Source: Chloroflexota bacterium (GTDB lineage: Bacteria; Chloroflexota; Dormibacteria; Dormibacterales; Dormibacteraceae). Taken from it: a DNA stretch of 64,000 nt. Positions 53,628-61,457 of this stretch are shown in pieces. A program made the position numbers and the translations under genes. Each line of letters starts with the position of its first letter. Positions within the stretch are counted from its first letter, which is position 1. A model generated the notes under the pieces. That model made no database searches, was not told the DNA's origin, and worked only from the letters and a program-made list of their open reading frames with translations. The stretch is taken from positions 186,001 to 250,000 of the forward strand of contig VBFH01000023.1 in NCBI GenBank assembly GCA_005883575.1, in the 5' to 3' direction.

Positions 53628-54209
53628 TTAGCTGGAGCGGCGGACCAGTTCCAGGAACTCGGCGCGGGTGCGTGGGTCTCGGCGGAACGTGCCGAGCATG
53701 CAGGAGGTCATCATGCGACCGCCCGGCGTCTCGACGCCCCTCATCTCCATGCACAGGTGCCTCGCCTCCACCACCACGCCCACGCCCCTGGGCGCAAGAC
53801 CGGCGTTGAGCGCCTCGGCGACCTCTCGGGTCAGCTGCTCCTGGATCTGCAGCCGGTGCGAGAAAACTTCCACCAGACGTGGGATCTTGCTCAGCCCGAC
53901 GACCTTGCCTTTGGGGAGATACCCGACGTGCACCTCCCCGAAGAACGGCAGCATATGGTGCTCGCAGAGGCTGTAGAACGGAATGTCCTTGACCACGACC
54001 ATCTCGTCGTAGTCCTGGTCGAAGACGGCGTCGGCGATGACGTCTTCGGGCTTGACCCCATAGCCGTCGGTCAGCTCCCGCAGGGCACGTGACACGCGGT
54101 CCGGCGTCGCCTTGAGGCCCTGCCGCGCCGGATCCTCACCCAGCTCGAGAAGCAAAGACTCGACGAGCTCGGCGATTGGATCACCCGGCTTGGGTTTAGG
54201 CGTGGCCAC
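53628..54209 (-). CDS. folE: GTP cyclohydrolase I
   Basis: A 193-residue homodecameric enzyme that converts GTP to dihydroneopterin triphosphate, the first step of folate synthesis. Zinc ligands Cys82 and His85 (LCEHHMLPF) and Cys153 (ARHLCMEMRG) are present, as are SKIPRLVEVFSHRLQIQE and the C-terminal MMTSCMLG. The GTG start at 54209 follows a TAAATT box by 12 nt. It is divergent from the PHP gene and separated by 158 nt from the ArsR promoter; that space holds the operators and no other feature I can name. Confidence 0.97.
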   Translation of the reverse strand: MATPKPKPGDPIAELVESLLLELGEDPARQGLKATPDRVSRALRELTDGYGVKPEDVIADAVFDQDYDEMVVVKDIPFYSLCEHHMLPFFGEVHVGYLPKGKVVGLSKIPRLVEVFSHRLQIQEQLTREVAEALNAGLAPRGVGVVVEARHLCMEMRGVETPGGRMMTSCMLGTFRRDPRTRAEFLELVRRSS

Positions 54210-54228
54210 GGTTGCTCACACAATTTAC

Positions 54229-55221
54229 GTGGTGGATGCCATCGCTGCCGCGCAGGCGCTCTCCGAGATCGGATATCTCCTCCGTCAGCAGGAAAAGGAG
54301 AGATTTCGCGCCAAGGCGTTCTCCATGGCGTCGTGGTCGATCGCCCTGCAGCGTCCGGACCTCGCGGCGCTACAGCGGTCGGAGGCCCTGACCTCGATCG
54401 AGGGCGTGGGCGAGGGCATCGCCAGAGTGCTCTCGGACCTGATCAAGAACGGCGAGAGCCGCTACCTGAACCGGCTGCGCGAGCAGATGGAGCAGCCGGC
54501 CCGCAACGACGAGTCGGACCTCGACTTCGCCGAGTACCGGGGCGACATTCACTCGCATACGGATTGGAGCGACGGCCGGGCGACCATGCTCGAGATGGCG
54601 GAAGGGGCGCGGGCGATGGGCTACACCTACGTGGGGATCACCGACCACTCGCCACGCATCACGGTAGTGCACGGTCTCAACGCCGAGCGCCTGGTCGCGC
54701 AGTCGCAGCAGATGGCGGAAGTGCAGAGGCAGGTCGATGGGCTGACGCTGCTGCAGGGCATCGAGGTCGACATCCTCGAGGATGGCGCGCTCGATCTTCC
54801 TGACGCCGTGCTCGAGATCCTCGACGTCGTCATCGCTTCACCGCACGTCAAATTGCGCCAGGAGCCGGCCGCGATGACCGAGCGCATGATGCGCGCGGTC
54901 GCGAATCGCCACGTCGATGTGATCGGCCATCCCACCGGCCGGCGCCCCGGCTCCCGCGAAGGCGCGACCTACGACTTCGAGACCGTCTTCAAGGAAGCCG
55001 CCAAGCAAGGTGTTGCCCTCGAGATCGACTGCGACCCGGCGCGGATGGACCTGTCGCCCGAGATGGCCCGACTCGCTTGCGAGCTCGGCTGTGACTTCGT
55101 GGTCGACGCCGACGCCCACGCACCCACGGAGTTCGCTTACGTGCCGATGGCGCTCTGGATGGCGCGGAGGGCGGGGATTCCGAAGGAGCGAATCCGGAAC
55201 TTTTGGCCGGAATGGAATTGA
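54229..55221 (+). CDS. PHP-domain phosphoesterase with N-terminal helix-hairpin-helix
   Basis: A 330-residue protein. Residues 1-90 form a helix-hairpin-helix module like the 8-kDa domain of PolX (ALTSIEGVGEGIARVLSDLI). Residues 105-325 are a PHP phosphoesterase with HSHTDWSDG, GITDHSPR, EVDIL, HVKLR, GHPTGR and DADAH metal motifs. It looks like PolX without the polymerase palm: a nuclease or phosphatase acting perhaps in DNA repair. GTG 54229 or 54232 is the start; earlier codons lie in folE. The gene is divergent from folE by 19 nt. Confidence 0.88.
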   Translation: MVDAIAAAQALSEIGYLLRQQEKERFRAKAFSMASWSIALQRPDLAALQRSEALTSIEGVGEGIARVLSDLIKNGESRYLNRLREQMEQPARNDESDLDFAEYRGDIHSHTDWSDGRATMLEMAEGARAMGYTYVGITDHSPRITVVHGLNAERLVAQSQQMAEVQRQVDGLTLLQGIEVDILEDGALDLPDAVLEILDVVIASPHVKLRQEPAAMTERMMRAVANRHVDVIGHPTGRRPGSREGATYDFETVFKEAAKQGVALEIDCDPARMDLSPEMARLACELGCDFVVDADAHAPTEFAYVPMALWMARRAGIPKERIRNFWPEWN

Positions 55222-55247
55222 CGGCCAACGCAAAATGATGTCAAATT
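55218..55247 (+). promoter_or_regulatory. Promoter candidate TTGACG-18-CAAATT, leaderless
   Basis: The -35 TTGACG (55218-55223) overlaps the PHP stop codon. The -10 CAAATT (55242-55247) ends 6 nt before GTG 55254. Confidence 0.5.
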
Positions 55248-55253
55248 GCATTC

Positions 55254-55946
55254 GTGGCCCGAGCGACGACCATCCGCCTGACCGACGAGGTTTTCGCCAG
55301 GCTCGACCAGGCGTCGGCGCGTACCGGGATGCCGGTCAACTCGATCGTGATCGCCGCATGCCTCGAGTGGATGCAGAGACACGCCTCGGAGCCGTTCAGC
55401 CCCCAGGATGTTTTCAGCCCACCGGTGGCCGGCCCCCCTCGCTGGGCGACCATCCGCCGAGCGGTCGTCGAGACGGTCGCCGGCCGCGCCCGCGGCCCGA
55501 TGTATCCGTTCGAGCGTTTCACCGCCACCGCCCAGGGAATGCTGACTGCGGCGCAGAACGAAGCCCTGAAGAGCGGCTTTACCTACATCGGCACAGAGCA
55601 CCTGTTGCTGGCGGCCTTCGCGGACGCGACATCGCACTCCGCGATGATGCTTGCCACGCTAGGCGTGCATGAGCAGACCGTCCGCTCGCTGCTGGAAAAG
55701 GCGCTGCGCGGCAAAAAGCCGCCCGGCAACCCGAGGATCGTTCCGACCTCGCGCGTGAAAAGAGTGATCGAGCTGGCGTTCAAGCTCTGCAGCGCAGCGG
55801 GGGATCCACTCGTCAGCACCGGCCACATCCTGCTGGCGCTCGCCTCAGAGGGCCAGGGGATCGCCGCCCACGTGCTGACAGACGCGGGCGTGCCCGCCGA
55901 CCGCGTCGCTGCAGCGATGGAGGAGTTCAGCGGGCCCGAAACCTGA
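55254..55946 (+). CDS. Ribbon-helix-helix / Clp N-domain fusion protein
   Basis: A 230-residue protein. Residues 1-45 are a ribbon-helix-helix DNA-binding domain (TTIRLTDEVFARLDQASARTG, then a second helix). After a linker, residues 85-228 contain the two-repeat Clp N-domain (FTATAQGMLTAAQNEAL, YIGTEHLLLAAF; then VIELAFKLC, STGHILLALA). No AAA ATPase follows. The N-domain normally presents substrates or adaptors to ClpC/ClpB. The fusion suggests a DNA-binding factor controlled by, or delivered to, Clp. GTG 55254 is 6 nt after the -10 box. Confidence 0.88.
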   Translation: MARATTIRLTDEVFARLDQASARTGMPVNSIVIAACLEWMQRHASEPFSPQDVFSPPVAGPPRWATIRRAVVETVAGRARGPMYPFERFTATAQGMLTAAQNEALKSGFTYIGTEHLLLAAFADATSHSAMMLATLGVHEQTVRSLLEKALRGKKPPGNPRIVPTSRVKRVIELAFKLCSAAGDPLVSTGHILLALASEGQGIAAHVLTDAGVPADRVAAAMEEFSGPET

Positions 55947-55966: not shown

Positions 55967-56875
55967 ATGGCTGAGCTCGGGATCATGATCGAGGGCCAGG
56001 AAGGCCTCAACTGGGAGCGCTGGCGCCGCATCTGCGCCGACACCGAGCGCCTTGGCTTCGTGTCCCTGCGCCGGAGCGATCACATGATCTCGCTAATGGG
56101 CGACGCCGACCGGGACTGCATCGAGTGCTGGGAGTCTCTCGCCCTCACCGCGGAATGGACGAAGAAGATCGAGTTCGGTCCCATGGTCACCCCGATGACA
56201 TTCCGGCTCGCGGCGGTCCTGGCGAAGATTGCCGCCTCGGTCGACGCCCTTTCCGGTGGCCGCCTCCTGCTCGGCGTCGGCGCGGGCTGGAACGAAAACG
56301 AGCACTCGGTCTTCGGCATCCCGTTCTTCAGCGAGAAGGAGCGCTTCGAGAAGCTGGAGCGCGGGATCGAGACGATGCGCGACATCTGGAAGAAGACGAG
56401 CCCGAAGCCGGCGCGGAATCCGATTCCACTGTTGATCGGCGGCAAGGGGTCGAAACGGACGCTGCCTCTCGTCGCCCGTGAGGCGGCGGAGTGGAACTTC
56501 TCCCGGCTCGACCCCGAGATGTTTCGCGATCGGCGCGAGGCGCTGGATCATTGCTGCCGTGAGGTCGGTCGCGACCCGGCCACGATTCGCCGCTCGATGA
56601 TGTGCAGCTACCTGATCGGCCGGGACCGCTCGGACCTGCTCGAACGTGCTTCGCAGATGCGCGAGGTCATCCCGTCGATGAAACCGATGAGCCCCGAAGA
56701 GGTGCTCGACAACATGAAGGGCAGGTGGCTGGCGGGCACGCCAGAGGAGATCGCCGAGCGGATCCGGGAGCTGAGCCGGCTTGGCATCGATCTGTTCATG
56801 CTCCAGCATTTCCTGCTCGACGATTCCGACGGTCTCGAGCTTTTGGCCAAGGAAGTCCTGCCCGCCGTCGCCTAA
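55967..56875 (+). CDS. LLM-family F420-dependent oxidoreductase
   Basis: A 302-residue luciferase-like TIM-barrel protein: MAELGIMIEGQEGLNW at the start, LRRSDHMIS near 35, MVTPMTFRLAAVLAKIAAS near 75-92, and SGGRLLLGVGAGWNENEH near 95-112. These are typical of F420-dependent oxidoreductases, though FMN-dependent relatives share the fold. Substrate is unknown. The F420 operon elsewhere in the window makes F420 use plausible. It is followed at 10-nt spacing by an acyl-CoA dehydrogenase, so a role in lipid or acyl-CoA oxidation is possible. Confidence 0.87.
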   Translation: MAELGIMIEGQEGLNWERWRRICADTERLGFVSLRRSDHMISLMGDADRDCIECWESLALTAEWTKKIEFGPMVTPMTFRLAAVLAKIAASVDALSGGRLLLGVGAGWNENEHSVFGIPFFSEKERFEKLERGIETMRDIWKKTSPKPARNPIPLLIGGKGSKRTLPLVAREAAEWNFSRLDPEMFRDRREALDHCCREVGRDPATIRRSMMCSYLIGRDRSDLLERASQMREVIPSMKPMSPEEVLDNMKGRWLAGTPEEIAERIRELSRLGIDLFMLQHFLLDDSDGLELLAKEVLPAVA

Positions 56876-56878
56876 GCT
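56873..56878 (+). promoter_or_regulatory. Candidate -10 box TAAGCT for the first acyl-CoA dehydrogenase
   Basis: TAAGCT begins with the TAA stop of the LLM gene and ends 6 nt before GTG 56885. Confidence 0.4.
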
Positions 56879-56884
56879 GCTCCC

Positions 56885-58030
56885 GTGGACTTTGAGCTCA
56901 GCGGATCAGAACGAGCGTTTCGCGACGAGGTCAGGGCATGGCTGAAGGCCAACGCACCCAGCGACAGGGACGGCGACGGCGACCTGAAGGCGTTCATCGA
57001 CCGGCGCCGCGAGTGGCAGAGGAAGCTGCACGAAGCGGGCTATGTGGGCATCACCTGGCCCAAAGAGTTCGGCGGGCGCGGCGGCAGCTTCATGGACCAG
57101 CTGATCTTCAATGACGAGATGATCCTCGCTCACGCCCCCGAGCCCATCAACGTCATCGGCCTCGGCATGGGCGGGCCGGTCGTGATCGCGCACGGCACCC
57201 AGGAGCAGAAGAAGCGCTACCTGCCGCCGCTGCTCTCGGCGCAAGAGATATGGTGCCAGGGCTTCAGCGAGCCGAACGCCGGCAGCGACCTCTCAGGCCT
57301 GCAGACCCGAGCCGAGGACCAAGGCGATCACTATCTCGTCAACGGGCAGAAGGTCTGGACGACGCTGGCCCACGTCGCGAAGTGGTGCATGCTGGTCGCC
57401 CGCGAGCGGAAGGAGGCGAATCCACGCGAAGGCCTCACCTATCTGCTCGTGGACATGGAAAGCCCCGGCGTGGAGGTCAGGCCGCTGGTCCAGATCACCG
57501 GCGACGCGGAGTTCAACGAGATCTTCTTCAAGGACGTCAAGGTTTCGAAGTCGCAGATCCTCGGTGAGCCCGGGAATGGGTGGGCGGTCGCGATGACGAC
57601 CCTGCTCCACGAGCGCGGCACGCTCGGGCTCGCGCTCGCGACGCGGGCTCAGATCACCGCCTCCGAGCTCGCCGAGCATGCACGCAAGCTCGGGCGCGGC
57701 TCCGACCCTCTGGTTCGGCAGAAGATCGCGCAGCACACGATCGAGGCTCGCGCGCTGCAGCTCAACGGCTACCGGGCCGTGACCGCGGTGAAGCGAAGCG
57801 GGATTCCGGGGCCTGAGGGCTCGATCCTCAAGCTCATGTGGTCCGAGCTCAACCAGCGGATGACCGAAACCGCGATGGACATCGCCGGCCCGGCGTCGCA
57901 AGTTAAGGACGGCGACGGTTGGAAGTACCAGTTCCTGCGCTCGCGCGCCAACACGATCGAAGCTGGAACCTCCGAGGTTTTGCGCAACATCCTCGCCGAG
58001 AGAGTGCTGGGCCTGCCCCGCTCTCGGTAG
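56885..58030 (+). CDS. Acyl-CoA dehydrogenase (first)
   Basis: A 381-residue FAD-dependent acyl-CoA dehydrogenase. The FAD/substrate segment is CQGFSEPNAGSDLSGLQT near residues 124-141, followed by VNGQKVWTT near 154-162. The C-terminal helical domain has GPEGSILKLMWSELNQRM near 310 and the typical end YQFLRSRANTIEAGTSEVLRNILAERVLG. The catalytic Glu position is not assigned; the form resembles long-chain/FadE-type enzymes. Substrate chain is unknown. The GTG start follows the LLM stop by 9 nt. Confidence 0.94.
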   Translation: MDFELSGSERAFRDEVRAWLKANAPSDRDGDGDLKAFIDRRREWQRKLHEAGYVGITWPKEFGGRGGSFMDQLIFNDEMILAHAPEPINVIGLGMGGPVVIAHGTQEQKKRYLPPLLSAQEIWCQGFSEPNAGSDLSGLQTRAEDQGDHYLVNGQKVWTTLAHVAKWCMLVARERKEANPREGLTYLLVDMESPGVEVRPLVQITGDAEFNEIFFKDVKVSKSQILGEPGNGWAVAMTTLLHERGTLGLALATRAQITASELAEHARKLGRGSDPLVRQKIAQHTIEARALQLNGYRAVTAVKRSGIPGPEGSILKLMWSELNQRMTETAMDIAGPASQVKDGDGWKYQFLRSRANTIEAGTSEVLRNILAERVLGLPRSR

Positions 58031-58033
58031 ACT
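58028..58033 (+). promoter_or_regulatory. Candidate -10 box TAGACT for the DHA2 transporter gene
   Basis: TAGACT begins with the TAG stop of the acyl-CoA dehydrogenase gene and ends 7 nt before GTG 58041. Confidence 0.4.
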
Positions 58034-58040
58034 CGGTTCA

Positions 58041-59642
58041 GTGACCGCAGTCGCCTCCAAGGCGGCCGGCGCAACCGCGACGAAGGGCATCAACCATGGC
58101 GTGATGACCGTCTTCGCCGGTCTGATGCTCGGCTCGCTGATCGCCTCCCTCAACATGACGCTGGTCGCGCCCGCGCTGCCCACGATCGTGGCGGAGCTGG
58201 GCGGGCTGGCCGACTACAGCTGGATCCCGATCTCGGCCATGCTGGCCTCGACCATCGTCACGCCGGTCGCGGGCAAGCTGTCCGACGTCTACGGCCGCAA
58301 ACCTCTCTACATGACCGGGATCGTCGTCTTCGCAGTCGGCTCAGCGCTGTCCGGCCTCGCGCCCAACTTCTGGTTTCTGGTCTTCGCGCGATTTGTCCAG
58401 GGCGCCGGGATGGGCTTCATCATGCCCCTCTCGCAAGCGATCATCGGCGACATCATCTCGCCGCGCGAACGCGGGAAATATCAGGGCATGATGGGCGCAT
58501 CTTTCGGCCTGGCGTCGATCGTCGGCCCCGCGGCCGGCGGATTCATCACCGATCACTTCACGTGGCGATGGCTGTTCTTCGTCAATCTCCCAATCGCGGT
58601 TCTGACACTGGTCGTCATCTGGTTTTTCATGCACGTCCCCAATGAGCGGCGCAAGCATGCCATTGACGTCTGGGGCAGCGTGACCCTGTCGCTCGGGATC
58701 GCCGCGACCCTGCTCGCCACGGTGTGGGGCGGGGTGCAGTACCCGTGGAGCTCGTGGCAGATTGTCGGCCTGTATTCGGCCGCGGGAGTGCTGCTCGCCG
58801 CCTTCGTATGGATCGAGATGCACGCGCCTGAACCCGTGCTGCCCCTCAGGCTCTGGGCGAGCACCGTCTTCACCTTCTCGAACATCGCCAGCGTCGGGGT
58901 GGCGATGTCGATGTTCGGCGCCATCTTCTTCCTACCGGTGTTCGTGCAGGGCGTGGTCGGCAACAGCGTTACGAACTCCGGCGCGATCCTCGTGCCGATG
59001 CTCGTGGCGATGATCGTCACGAGCGTGGTCGGTGGGCAGCTCATATCCCGCACCGGACGCTACAAGGGACAGCTGCTCCTGGGGCTTGCGATGATGGGCG
59101 TCGGGTACTACCTGCTCTCGACCTTCAACGTCAACACAAGCAACCAGCAGGTGATCGTGGCGATGATCCTGCTCGGTCTTGGACTCGGCGCCTGCATGCA
59201 GACCTACGTCCTTGTGGTGCAGAACTCTGTCAGCCGCCAGGACATGGCCGTGGCCACATCCGCGACGCAGCTGTCGCGCTCGATCGGAGCGGCGATCGGG
59301 CTGGCCATCCTCGGAACCCTTCTAACCCAGGGCATGGCGAGCTCGATGGCCCGATACTTGCCCGCCTCGGCGCTGCAGAGACTCCAGTCGTCAGGCGGTG
59401 GCGCGACGGCGACCGCGGTGTTCGACCCCGCGAAGCTGGCGAACCTGCCGCCGGCGATCGAGCTGGGCATCCGGCATGGGCTCGCGGATGCCCTCCATCC
59501 GGTCTTTCTGGCCGGGGTCCCGATCATCGCCATCGCCTTCGTGGCGACCCTGTTCATCAAAGAGCTTCCGCTTCGCCAGACGGCTCACGTGACCGCCGGC
59601 CGACAGGCCCCCGCAGCGACCGAAAACTCACCTTTGAGCTGA
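58041..59642 (+). CDS. DHA2-family (EmrB/QacA-like) MFS drug exporter
   Basis: A 533-residue permease with about 14 helices. The loop 2-3 motif GKLSDVYGRKPLYMTG is near residue 80. Antiporter motif C-like sequence follows in helix 5 (SIVGPAAGGFITDHFTWRWLFFVNLPI near 155-180), which is typical of DHA2 exporters. It would pump toxic organic compounds out by proton antiport. The C-terminus is a short hydrophilic tail. The substrate is not predictable. It lies between two acyl-CoA dehydrogenase genes with 10-nt spacing. Confidence 0.93.
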   Translation: MTAVASKAAGATATKGINHGVMTVFAGLMLGSLIASLNMTLVAPALPTIVAELGGLADYSWIPISAMLASTIVTPVAGKLSDVYGRKPLYMTGIVVFAVGSALSGLAPNFWFLVFARFVQGAGMGFIMPLSQAIIGDIISPRERGKYQGMMGASFGLASIVGPAAGGFITDHFTWRWLFFVNLPIAVLTLVVIWFFMHVPNERRKHAIDVWGSVTLSLGIAATLLATVWGGVQYPWSSWQIVGLYSAAGVLLAAFVWIEMHAPEPVLPLRLWASTVFTFSNIASVGVAMSMFGAIFFLPVFVQGVVGNSVTNSGAILVPMLVAMIVTSVVGGQLISRTGRYKGQLLLGLAMMGVGYYLLSTFNVNTSNQQVIVAMILLGLGLGACMQTYVLVVQNSVSRQDMAVATSATQLSRSIGAAIGLAILGTLLTQGMASSMARYLPASALQRLQSSGGGATATAVFDPAKLANLPPAIELGIRHGLADALHPVFLAGVPIIAIAFVATLFIKELPLRQTAHVTAGRQAPAATENSPLS

Positions 59643-59649
59643 TAGCGGC

Positions 59650-59678
59650 TTGTCTTGCGGCGGCACGCAAGCCAGAAT
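59650..59678 (+). promoter_or_regulatory. Promoter candidate TTGTCT-17-CAGAAT, leaderless
   Basis: The -35 TTGTCT (59650-59655) and -10 CAGAAT (59673-59678) have a 17-nt spacer. GTG 59686 starts 7 nt after the -10 box, which supports this start over TTG 59650. Confidence 0.5.
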
Positions 59679-59685
59679 TCCGCTC

Positions 59686-60315
59686 GTGAATCAGGTGTCC
59701 GGCCGCGAACGGCTCGTCTGGTCCTTCTGGGCGGCGGCCGCCATCGCGGCGGTGGGAGGCGTGCTGCCCCTGCTGTTCGCCGGGACCGCGAGCCGGATGG
59801 CAACCGTGGCCATTCCGTTCGCAATCGGCGCCGCAGCGCTCGCAGCGTGTGGATTCCTGCACGGCCAGGGACGCGTCGTGTCCGCCGCCCTCTACTTCCT
59901 CGCCGGCCTCGCGCTCGTGTACGGGATTCTGGCGATGTTTGCGATCCCGCTCGAGCTGGCGGTCCTAGGCACCTGCGACCCTTCGCCGGCGCCGTGCGTC
60001 AGCGGCTTTGGGCGCCCACTGACCGTGGGCGAGAACACCGGCATGGGTTTTGCCGCAGGGTTCGGACTGGCCGCGCTGTTCATCGGCTTCTTCGGCTTGA
60101 TGGTGGTCTTCCGGAAACCGCTGCTGCCGCCTTCTGTCCCGTCGGCGAGAAAAATGCCGCCGGTCGGGAGCGCCGGGCCCGCGCCGGCTGTGGCGCAAGC
60201 TCCACGTAACGGCTCCGCACCGGAGGCGGTCGAGGACGAGCCCGAGCTGCCGGCGCACGAAGAGGAGGAGGTCCCGGAGCTGCCTCCGCACGAGTCAGAT
60301 CCTCCCACCGCCTAG
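59686..60315 (+). CDS. Four-helix membrane protein with acidic C-terminal tail, unknown function
   Basis: A 209-residue protein with four hydrophobic helices (about residues 10-30, 38-58, 65-85 and 115-138). A loop with two Cys (CDPSPAPC) lies between helices 3 and 4 and may form a disulfide outside. The C-terminal tail (150-209) is Pro- and Glu-rich with repeated PELP/PELPPHE-like units. No family is recognised. GTG 59686 is chosen by promoter spacing; TTG 59650 is an alternative. Confidence 0.68.
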   Translation: MNQVSGRERLVWSFWAAAAIAAVGGVLPLLFAGTASRMATVAIPFAIGAAALAACGFLHGQGRVVSAALYFLAGLALVYGILAMFAIPLELAVLGTCDPSPAPCVSGFGRPLTVGENTGMGFAAGFGLAALFIGFFGLMVVFRKPLLPPSVPSARKMPPVGSAGPAPAVAQAPRNGSAPEAVEDEPELPAHEEEEVPELPPHESDPPTA

Positions 60316-60318
60316 ACT
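60313..60318 (+). promoter_or_regulatory. Candidate -10 box TAGACT for the second acyl-CoA dehydrogenase
   Basis: TAGACT begins with the TAG stop of the membrane-protein gene and ends 8 nt before GTG 60327. The hexamer is identical to that at 58028. Confidence 0.4.
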
Positions 60319-60326
60319 GCCTCTCC

Positions 60327-61457
60327 GTGGATTTCGCATTCTCCGAAGAGCAGGAGATGCTTCGCCGCTCGGCGCGCGAGTTCCTGGCCAAGGAATGCAG
60401 CCCGAAGATCGTACGCAGGCTGATGGAGGGCGGCGACGGCTACGATCCGGCGCTCTGGAAGAAGATCACAGACCTCGGGTGGACCGCGTTGGGGATCCCT
60501 GAGGCATACGGCGGGGTCGGTACGTTCCTGGACCTGATCGTGGTCCTCGAGGAGGCGGGAAGAGCGCTGCTGCCGGGCCCTTTCTTCTCGACCATGGCCC
60601 TTGCGGTCCCGGTGCTGATCGAAGCGGGCACCGAGGTTCAAAAGAAGGAGGCGCTCAACGCCATCGCGGTGGGTTCCGCTCGGGCTACCCTTGCCTTCAC
60701 GGAGCCGTCCGGCAGGTGGGACGCAGGCGGCATCGGCCTCAAGGCCACGCAAGCCGGCGGCGGTTGGCGGCTCGACGGCGTCAAGCTGTTCGTCCCTGAC
60801 GCGGAGCGGGCTGACTACACGGTCGTGGTGGCGCGCACACGCGGTGAAGGCGAGGATGGCATCACGCTCTTCCTGGTCAAGGGCAAGCCGGCCGGGATGA
60901 GCGTTAGGCCGCTCGAGACCCTCGATATGACGCGGCGGTGGAGCGAAGTTCGCTTCGACGGCGTTCAGCTCGACGCCGAGACGATGATGGGAGCGCCCGG
61001 CAAGGCGTGGCCGCGCCTGAAGCGCGCTCTCGAATGGGCGACGGCGGCGCTGTGCGCGGAGATGGTGGGCGGGGTGCAAAAGGTCCTCGAGACTTCAACC
61101 GAGTATGCGAAGACACGGCACCAGTTCGGCAAACCGATCGGCATCTACCAGGCCGTCTCGCACAAGCTCGCGGACATGCTCGTGCTGTCCGAGAGCGGAC
61201 GCTCAGCAACCTACTACGCGGCATGGGCGGTCGACGCCGACGCCAGCGACCGCGCGCTGGCCTCGTCGATGGCGAAGGCATATGTGTCGGACGCGTATCG
61301 CAAGGTCGCAGGCGACGGTATCCAGGTGCACGGCGGCATCGGCTTCACCTGGGAGCACGACATGCATTTGTACTTCAAGCGCGCGAAATCATCGGAAGTG
61401 ACGCTCGGTGACGCGACCTATCATCGCGAGCTCGTCGCGCAAGCTCTCGACCTCTAG
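60327..61457 (+). CDS. Acyl-CoA dehydrogenase (second)
   Basis: A 376-residue acyl-CoA dehydrogenase of the shorter, more divergent kind often found as one partner of heteromeric FadE/ACAD pairs. The start MDFAFSEEQEMLRRSAREFL is typical. The FAD segment is degenerate (TLAFTEPSGRWDAGG) compared with the first dehydrogenase. The C-terminal RHQFGKPIGIYQAVSHKLADM and VHGGIGFTWEHDMHLYFKRAK are conserved. The two dehydrogenases may form a heteromer, as in steroid side-chain degradation. This is inference from pairing and sequence type. Confidence 0.92.
   Translation: MDFAFSEEQEMLRRSAREFLAKECSPKIVRRLMEGGDGYDPALWKKITDLGWTALGIPEAYGGVGTFLDLIVVLEEAGRALLPGPFFSTMALAVPVLIEAGTEVQKKEALNAIAVGSARATLAFTEPSGRWDAGGIGLKATQAGGGWRLDGVKLFVPDAERADYTVVVARTRGEGEDGITLFLVKGKPAGMSVRPLETLDMTRRWSEVRFDGVQLDAETMMGAPGKAWPRLKRALEWATAALCAEMVGGVQKVLETSTEYAKTRHQFGKPIGIYQAVSHKLADMLVLSESGRSATYYAAWAVDADASDRALASSMAKAYVSDAYRKVAGDGIQVHGGIGFTWEHDMHLYFKRAKSSEVTLGDATYHRELVAQALDL

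Follow-up and report, generated by a model that had tools for sequence, protein, structure and literature searches.

Among proteins in which a Clp N-domain (Clp_N) stands without an ATPase, the closest described relative of the one considered here is ClpC2 of Mycobacterium tuberculosis, which is reported to repress its own gene through operators overlapping the -35 and -10 elements, and whose transcript the same report suggests to be leaderless (PMC10030653). Cyclomarin on the Clp_N domain of ClpC2 is described as lifting this repression, with the result that ClpC2 builds up and binds the antibiotic away (PMC10030653; see also PMC12913811). In ClpC the N-domain is presented as a docking receptor for adaptors, substrates and antibacterial peptides (PMC12583610). 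Descriptions of ClpC2 place it in actinobacteria, where it weakens the action of antibiotics aimed at Clp. The second point of reference is the CopG/Arc type of ribbon-helix-helix (RHH) repressor, which typically has repeats across its own promoter, and in which the ribbon of the fold forms only in a dimer.

The protein analyzed here, from a soil bacterium of the Chloroflexota, joins an RHH domain to a Clp N-domain. The features of its locus, in coordinates of the window (the whole stretch of 64,000 nucleotides that was analyzed), are the following.

54205..55221, + strand: upstream neighbor, encoding a PHP-domain protein that has a helix-hairpin-helix region; the ORF may start at 54112
55218..55253, + strand: conserved candidate promoter/operator element, with TTGACG at 55218-55223, a 17-nt spacer, a weak -10-like TCAAAT at 55241-55246 and 7 nt to the GTG
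55231..55248, + strand: two copies of the core repeat unit at an interval of 11 bp, CAAAATG (55231-55237) and CAAATTG (55242-55248)
55254..55946, + strand: RHH-Clp_N gene including its stop codon, 230 aa from a GTG start (ORF list, Pfam scan, dN/dS)
55254..55382, + strand: RHH domain, residues 1-43, with an extended strand at about 3-10 and two helices; T5, T6, R8, N29, S30, I31 and V32 are among its residues invariant in 10/10 members
55383..55505, + strand: variable and probably flexible linker, residues 44-84; pLDDT below 50 for 46-83, and the highest dN of the three parts in 4/5 pairs
55506..55937, + strand: complete two-repeat ClpC-type N-domain, residues 85-228, with no ATPase after it (Pfam, PDB sequence match, model)
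55967..56875, + strand: luciferase-like monooxygenase, the downstream neighbor, 20 bp after the stop
56885-58030, + strand: acyl-CoA dehydrogenase, after a gap of about 10 bp
58041-59642, + strand: MFS transporter, after a gap of about 10 bp

The gene is a real one, given a whole-protein dN/dS of about 0.11-0.31 in five pairs, which indicates purifying selection. The original prediction, of an RHH domain followed by Clp_N without any ATPase, was correct: the RHH part was recovered by model and Foldseek, Clp_N by Pfam, PDB sequence match and model, and an AAA domain is absent. The whole-protein model, from an alignment of 9 sequences, had a pLDDT of 74.

For the N-terminal domain, every RHH model in Pfam remained under its cut-off with the single sequence. 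RHH_3 matched at E 0.012 and 16 bits with the whole protein and at E 0.0036 and 17.7 bits with the N-terminal 80 aa alone, in both cases against a gathering score of 21.6, which is a curation threshold and not a structural criterion; 7/9 members matched RHH_3 at E up to 1. Since scores below the cut-off are no proof of an RHH domain from sequence alone, the first 47 residues were modeled separately. With ten relatives in the alignment the model reached a pLDDT of 92, with helices at 11-24 and 28-43, and when it was compared with the PDB by Foldseek each of the first nine rows was an RHH protein, from among CopG, Arc and the antitoxin CopASO (prob 0.95-0.99, TM 0.69-0.80), with AtaR, KacA and HicB in lower rows; the E-values were just 0.07-0.2, as expected at 47 residues. 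Structure prediction, the check that had been named beforehand for residues 1-45, consequently finds the RHH fold there, and by its single-chain model, a strand-helix-helix fold of about 45 residues, the domain is a member of the RHH (MetJ/Arc/CopG) superfamily. Invariant in all ten RHH domains are T5, T6, R8, R16, A20, G25, N29, S30, I31, V32, A35, C36, L37, W39 and H43, of which T6 and R8 presumably face the DNA, by analogy with CopG. The RHH part was also the lowest of the parts in the dN/dS comparison (RHH dN 0.03-0.15, five pairs). Dimerization and DNA binding would, by the modeled fold, be its functions.

The remainder of the protein is a ClpC-type N-domain. Pfam matched Clp_N in two stretches (E 1.6e-21), a comparison with PDB sequences aligned residues 86-220 to the ClpC N-domain over its full extent (E 4e-20), and residues ~85-228 of the model superpose on ClpC N-domains with Z 22-24 (about 1.5-2 A for most rows) and on the ClpC2 structure 8ad9 with Z 19.2; the two tandem Clp_N repeats form the double four-helix fold. 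The Pfam scan of the ORF, which stops 2 residues past the modeled N-domain, contained no AAA domain, and identity as a ClpC ATPase was ruled out by the absence of the two AAA modules after the N-domain. ClpC, which the original prediction suggested looking for, is encoded in the genome of the window together with ClpP, and ClpP is found in all ten carriers. The N-domain of this ClpC has the same fold, a common IIPTSRVKKVIE-like segment and 45% identity over residues 77-224. In contrast to the RHH-Clp_N protein, it is followed by AAA modules, and it keeps the equivalents of both E32 and E106, the latter of which, in the second phosphoarginine (pArg) pocket, is replaced by G, N or D in every member of the family. 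Cyclomarin-type peptides are reported to involve residues F2, F80 and E89 of ClpC1 (PMC10030653). The equivalents of F2 and E89 are kept in most members, and that of F80 is a proline in the family and in the host ClpC alike, so the sensed peptide, if any, need not be cyclomarin. Misfolded or aggregated proteins and ClpC-directed peptides are possible ligands.

An N-terminal profile search found members in 10 of 110 genomes of the class, nine of which belong to family f1 and the remaining one, G051, to f3, and all ten carry RHH and Clp_N together; a fragment at a contig end in G040 (residues 156-229, 64%) may be an eleventh. Across a sample of the phylum 13 of 400 genomes matched the profile, seven of these being members and the other six having no Clp_N within the fetched loci; at most 13 candidates were scored per genome in this search, and absence there is weak evidence. 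The architecture is thereby as uncommon as had been supposed, and a search limited to open-licence papers found no published description of an RHH + Clp_N fusion. A Clp_N tree of 63 rows was built after rows with fewer than 105 aligned positions and duplicate sequences had been dropped, and its bootstrap was still unsettled. In this tree nine of the ten RHH-bearing members cluster with the stand-alone Clp_N protein from G023 (96/91), inside a wider Chloroflexota group of stand-alone Clp_N proteins (86/91). The tenth, L074 (branch 2.9), lies outside this cluster, and a single origin of all ten is thus not demonstrated by the Clp_N tree.

Neither plasmids nor phages yielded an RHH-bearing relative, and of 35 pattern matches in viral contigs 0 were confirmed; an origin from a phage or mobile element was rejected on these searches. 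The plasmid matches covering at least 80% of the query numbered four and were all inspected, H5 by annotation only: in H1 and H8 a ClpC-like N-domain is preceded by an unrelated part, and H2 begins with a different, cysteine-bearing N-terminus, an RHH being seen in none of these three, and H5 is annotated as an AAA ATPase.

A new result of this analysis is an upstream element common to nine of the ten members, which strengthens the earlier reading of the protein as a transcription factor. TTGAC begins 34-37 nt before the start codon in 9/10 members; in L041, for instance, the region upstream of the ATG reads TTGACAATGATTGCAAAATGACACCAAATTGGCATC. In the window the stop codon of the PHP gene (TGA, 55219-55221) falls inside the element, and its first ~20 nt appear to double as coding sequence for the PHP C-terminus in four genomes of g2; upstream identity clearly exceeds third-codon-position identity among only part of the pairs. 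A strict sigma-70 consensus scan reported no promoter at the element, the hexamers being weak. With just 7 nt between the -10-like TCAAAT and the start codon, the transcript would be leaderless or almost so.

Within the element, short units recur at 11 bp. Over the nine aligned upstream regions (L074, from which the TTGAC element is absent, was left out) the mean self-match was 0.54 at lag 11 compared with 0.12-0.38 at the other lags from 5 to 17, a score reached by 0/5000 shuffles whether or not the choice of lag was allowed for; the shuffles moved whole alignment columns, which preserves the relatedness of the rows. When the most distant row was removed, the lag-11 score was still reached by 0/5000 shuffles, and by 2/5000 allowing for lag choice. 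L015, the most distant of the nine TTGAC-bearing members (39% identical, other family, other locus), displays a strong 11-bp periodicity by itself (1/5000 at lag 11, 13/5000 allowing for lag choice). Taken row by row, seven of the nine are strong (0-14/5000) and two are weak, namely L038 (616/5000) and the window's own region (728/5000), on which a repeat finder also reported no repeats. L074 has, instead of the repeats, a near-perfect palindrome GATGTCAT-A-ATGACATC directly before its start codon. At this locus (G027, around 1671-1684 of L074), the gene lies divergent to an acyl-CoA-dehydrogenase-like ORF at a distance of ~13 bp, with the palindrome GATGTCATAATGACATC adjoining the start codon, and L074 could control both itself and that ORF.

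A 19-bp core of the element, searched with up to 3 mismatches in nine carrier genomes, gave 7 sites, of which six are the gene's own promoter; the reversed pattern gave 0 matches, and none of the 7 sites is at clpC or clpB. The own promoters in G004, G005 and G051 are too divergent to match the core. The only site away from the gene, at G017:C140 (3 mismatches), sits between what read as nitroreductase-like and IclR-like ORFs, ~440 bp from the next start. A wider regulon was considered and rejected on this single off-gene site among the nine genomes, with the proviso that more degenerate sites would escape the pattern. As nearly all core matches are at the own promoter, the protein would be a local and not a global regulator as far as the pattern shows, and its likely role is that of a local autorepressor.

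We lean, by a narrow measure, towards a one-component, self-repressing sensor and decoy built from the ClpC N-domain. According to this model an RHH dimer would occupy the tandem ~11-bp repeats across its own promoter and hold expression of the gene low, while the tethered Clp N-domains would bind the ligands of the ClpC N-domain, which might be unfolded protein, adaptors, or peptides or antibiotics directed at ClpC. Ligand on the Clp N-domain would weaken DNA binding and derepress the gene, and the accumulated protein would titrate ligands away from ClpC. Repression, ligand-induced release and the decoy role are all drawn by analogy with ClpC2. The ClpC2 authors assign the DNA contact to the Clp_N domain, so the RHH domain here could in principle be a dimerizer only.

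Other explanations give the same domains a different task. It was originally proposed that the protein might sense phosphoarginine, and the equivalents of E32 in the first pocket and of K85 are indeed each kept in 9/10 members. We nevertheless consider this very improbable, because a McsB family member (ATP:guanido phosphotransferase, PF00217; two models) was found in 0/10 carrier genomes, and because the E106-equivalent is lost in 10/10 members although the genome's own ClpC retains it. The McsB search alone was uninformative at first, since none of 14 control genomes, including Bacillus subtilis, gave a match; the positive control added afterwards matched at E 5.6e-71. The protein might also be an autorepressor with built-in turnover, that is, a ClpCP substrate whose Clp_N or linker aids engagement by ClpC, with repression lifted once ClpCP becomes active or is freed. 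RHH antitoxins are well-known targets of proteases, ClpC and ClpP are both at hand, and the linker is variable and modeled with low confidence. This reading is quite unlikely, however, insofar as the Clp N-domain is described as the docking surface of ClpC and a receptor for adaptors, and not as an adaptor or degron itself (PMC12583610), which leaves the idea of delivery to ClpCP by the protein's own adaptor domain unsupported; moreover, no degron was identified, and docking of a free N-domain on ClpC is an assumption of the reading.

The genomic neighborhood bears on two further explanations. The RHH-Clp_N gene could possibly form an operon with the monooxygenase, acyl-CoA dehydrogenase and MFS transporter genes, and as regulator of that operon it would turn on detoxification and efflux once Clp_N is occupied by a compound directed at ClpC. 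The 20-bp and ~10-bp gaps in the window speak for this, as does the block itself, which comes after the gene in eight carriers of family f1, the window among them (the MFS gene being missing in G004). The role is unlikely, though, since the neighbors do not need the gene: it lies between the PHP-domain and monooxygenase genes in only 4/17 genomes of the genus (G000, G004, G005 and G008), and in the other 13 these two genes adjoin, 26-283 bp apart, with the gene absent. In addition, gaps of ~350 bp to 1.5 kb interrupt the run in some relatives, and two distant carriers (G051 and G027) have the gene at other loci with other neighbors. The same patchy distribution, together with a short 3' remnant in G014 (57 bp, 82% identical, spanning the gene end and the spacer after it), could be taken to mean a decaying gene or a chance fusion without function. 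We give this hardly any credence, given the dN/dS of 0.11-0.31 in five pairs and the second family that has the same fusion and promoter geometry at another locus. The place between the PHP and monooxygenase genes is also used in four g2 genomes, and loss of the gene in 13 genus genomes is thus more likely than repeated gain.

Two observations on the neighborhood are added for completeness. From 55967 to 61457 the genes of the window run in the same direction with short gaps, the MFS gene being followed by a protein without a Pfam match and then by a second acyl-CoA dehydrogenase. In G014 the gap between the PHP and monooxygenase genes (L117 1218-1500) contains at least five copies of a palindromic TAGTCGCGACTA-like unit; no copy was found in the 64-kb window when up to 1 mismatch was allowed.

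ATPase-less Clp_N proteins of other kinds occur in the class and beyond it. By sequence reading, L034, L051, L053 and L064 (G013, G007, G035 and G040) have a UvrB/UvrC-motif-like helical tail, and L032, L045, L047 and L049 a small C-terminal domain that includes a VLVHDPEPPYRLWEG-like segment and ends in C-x-x-C. The mycobacteriophages Phabba (L100 810-1475) and Myrna encode ATPase-less ClpC-type N-domain proteins, that of Phabba clustering in the tree with actinobacterial ClpC-type N-domains; these are possibly phage decoys of the Clp system.

We tentatively suggest, as a serious possibility that we would not yet bet on, that the ClpC N-domain has been made into a self-repressing one-component transcriptional sensor more than once independently, as HTH + Clp_N in the Actinomycetota and as RHH + Clp_N in the Chloroflexota, with near-leaderless promoters. 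If so, ATPase-less Clp_N proteins would be a general class of sensor-sponges that detect attack on, or overload of, the Clp protease, and ClpC-directed peptides of soil competitors would be a plausible ligand. A second lineage with the same logic and another DNA-binding domain would make sensing by a borrowed Clp N-domain a recurrent solution. The 230-aa protein and its 36-bp element would also be a compact test system, whose parts for binding DNA and ligand seem neatly divided, in contrast to ClpC2.

In comparison with known systems, the protein resembles CopG/Arc-type repressors in its two-helix fold with an N-terminal strand, but differs from them in that the RHH is fused to a Clp N-domain and scores below the Pfam RHH cut-offs. 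With trifunctional PutA, described as an autogenous repressor, it would have in common self-repression by an RHH fused to a ligand-binding partner, which in PutA is a flavoenzyme and not a Clp N-domain. The likeness to ClpC2 (Rv2667 of M. tuberculosis, and actinobacterial relatives) extends further: an ATPase-less Clp_N after a short N-terminal domain and a linker, a similar size (252 aa in ClpC2, 230 aa here), and, as a prediction for the protein here, a repeated or palindromic operator over the own promoter with a leaderless-like geometry. The operators themselves differ, CGTCAAC-n5-GTTGACG being given for ClpC2 as opposed to the 11-bp direct repeats of the RHH-Clp_N family, and so do the N-terminal domains, that of ClpC2 having four helices (PDB 8ada) and being read as an HTH (PMC13284704). 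Our N-terminal 80 aa gave no match to 8ada up to E 10, and in BLASTP with a ClpC2 relative only Clp_N aligns. By comparison, the ClpC2 relative P0001 (L096) of a Tsukamurella plasmid matches 8ada at E 1.6e-19; its N-terminal domain (residues 2-83) also matches the antitoxin RelI (9sdc, E 6.6e-6). In the Clp_N tree the two actinobacterial ClpC2-type proteins are separate (100/99), whereas the RHH-Clp_N domains fall inside the Chloroflexota group, and the separate positions and unrelated N-terminal domains favor independent origins of the two types. What is new is a ClpC2-like and probably autoregulated protein that pairs Clp_N with an exchanged DNA-binding domain and comes from another phylum, and we read it as a functional parallel, a domain-swapped analogue of ClpC2 and not a member of the ClpC2 group.
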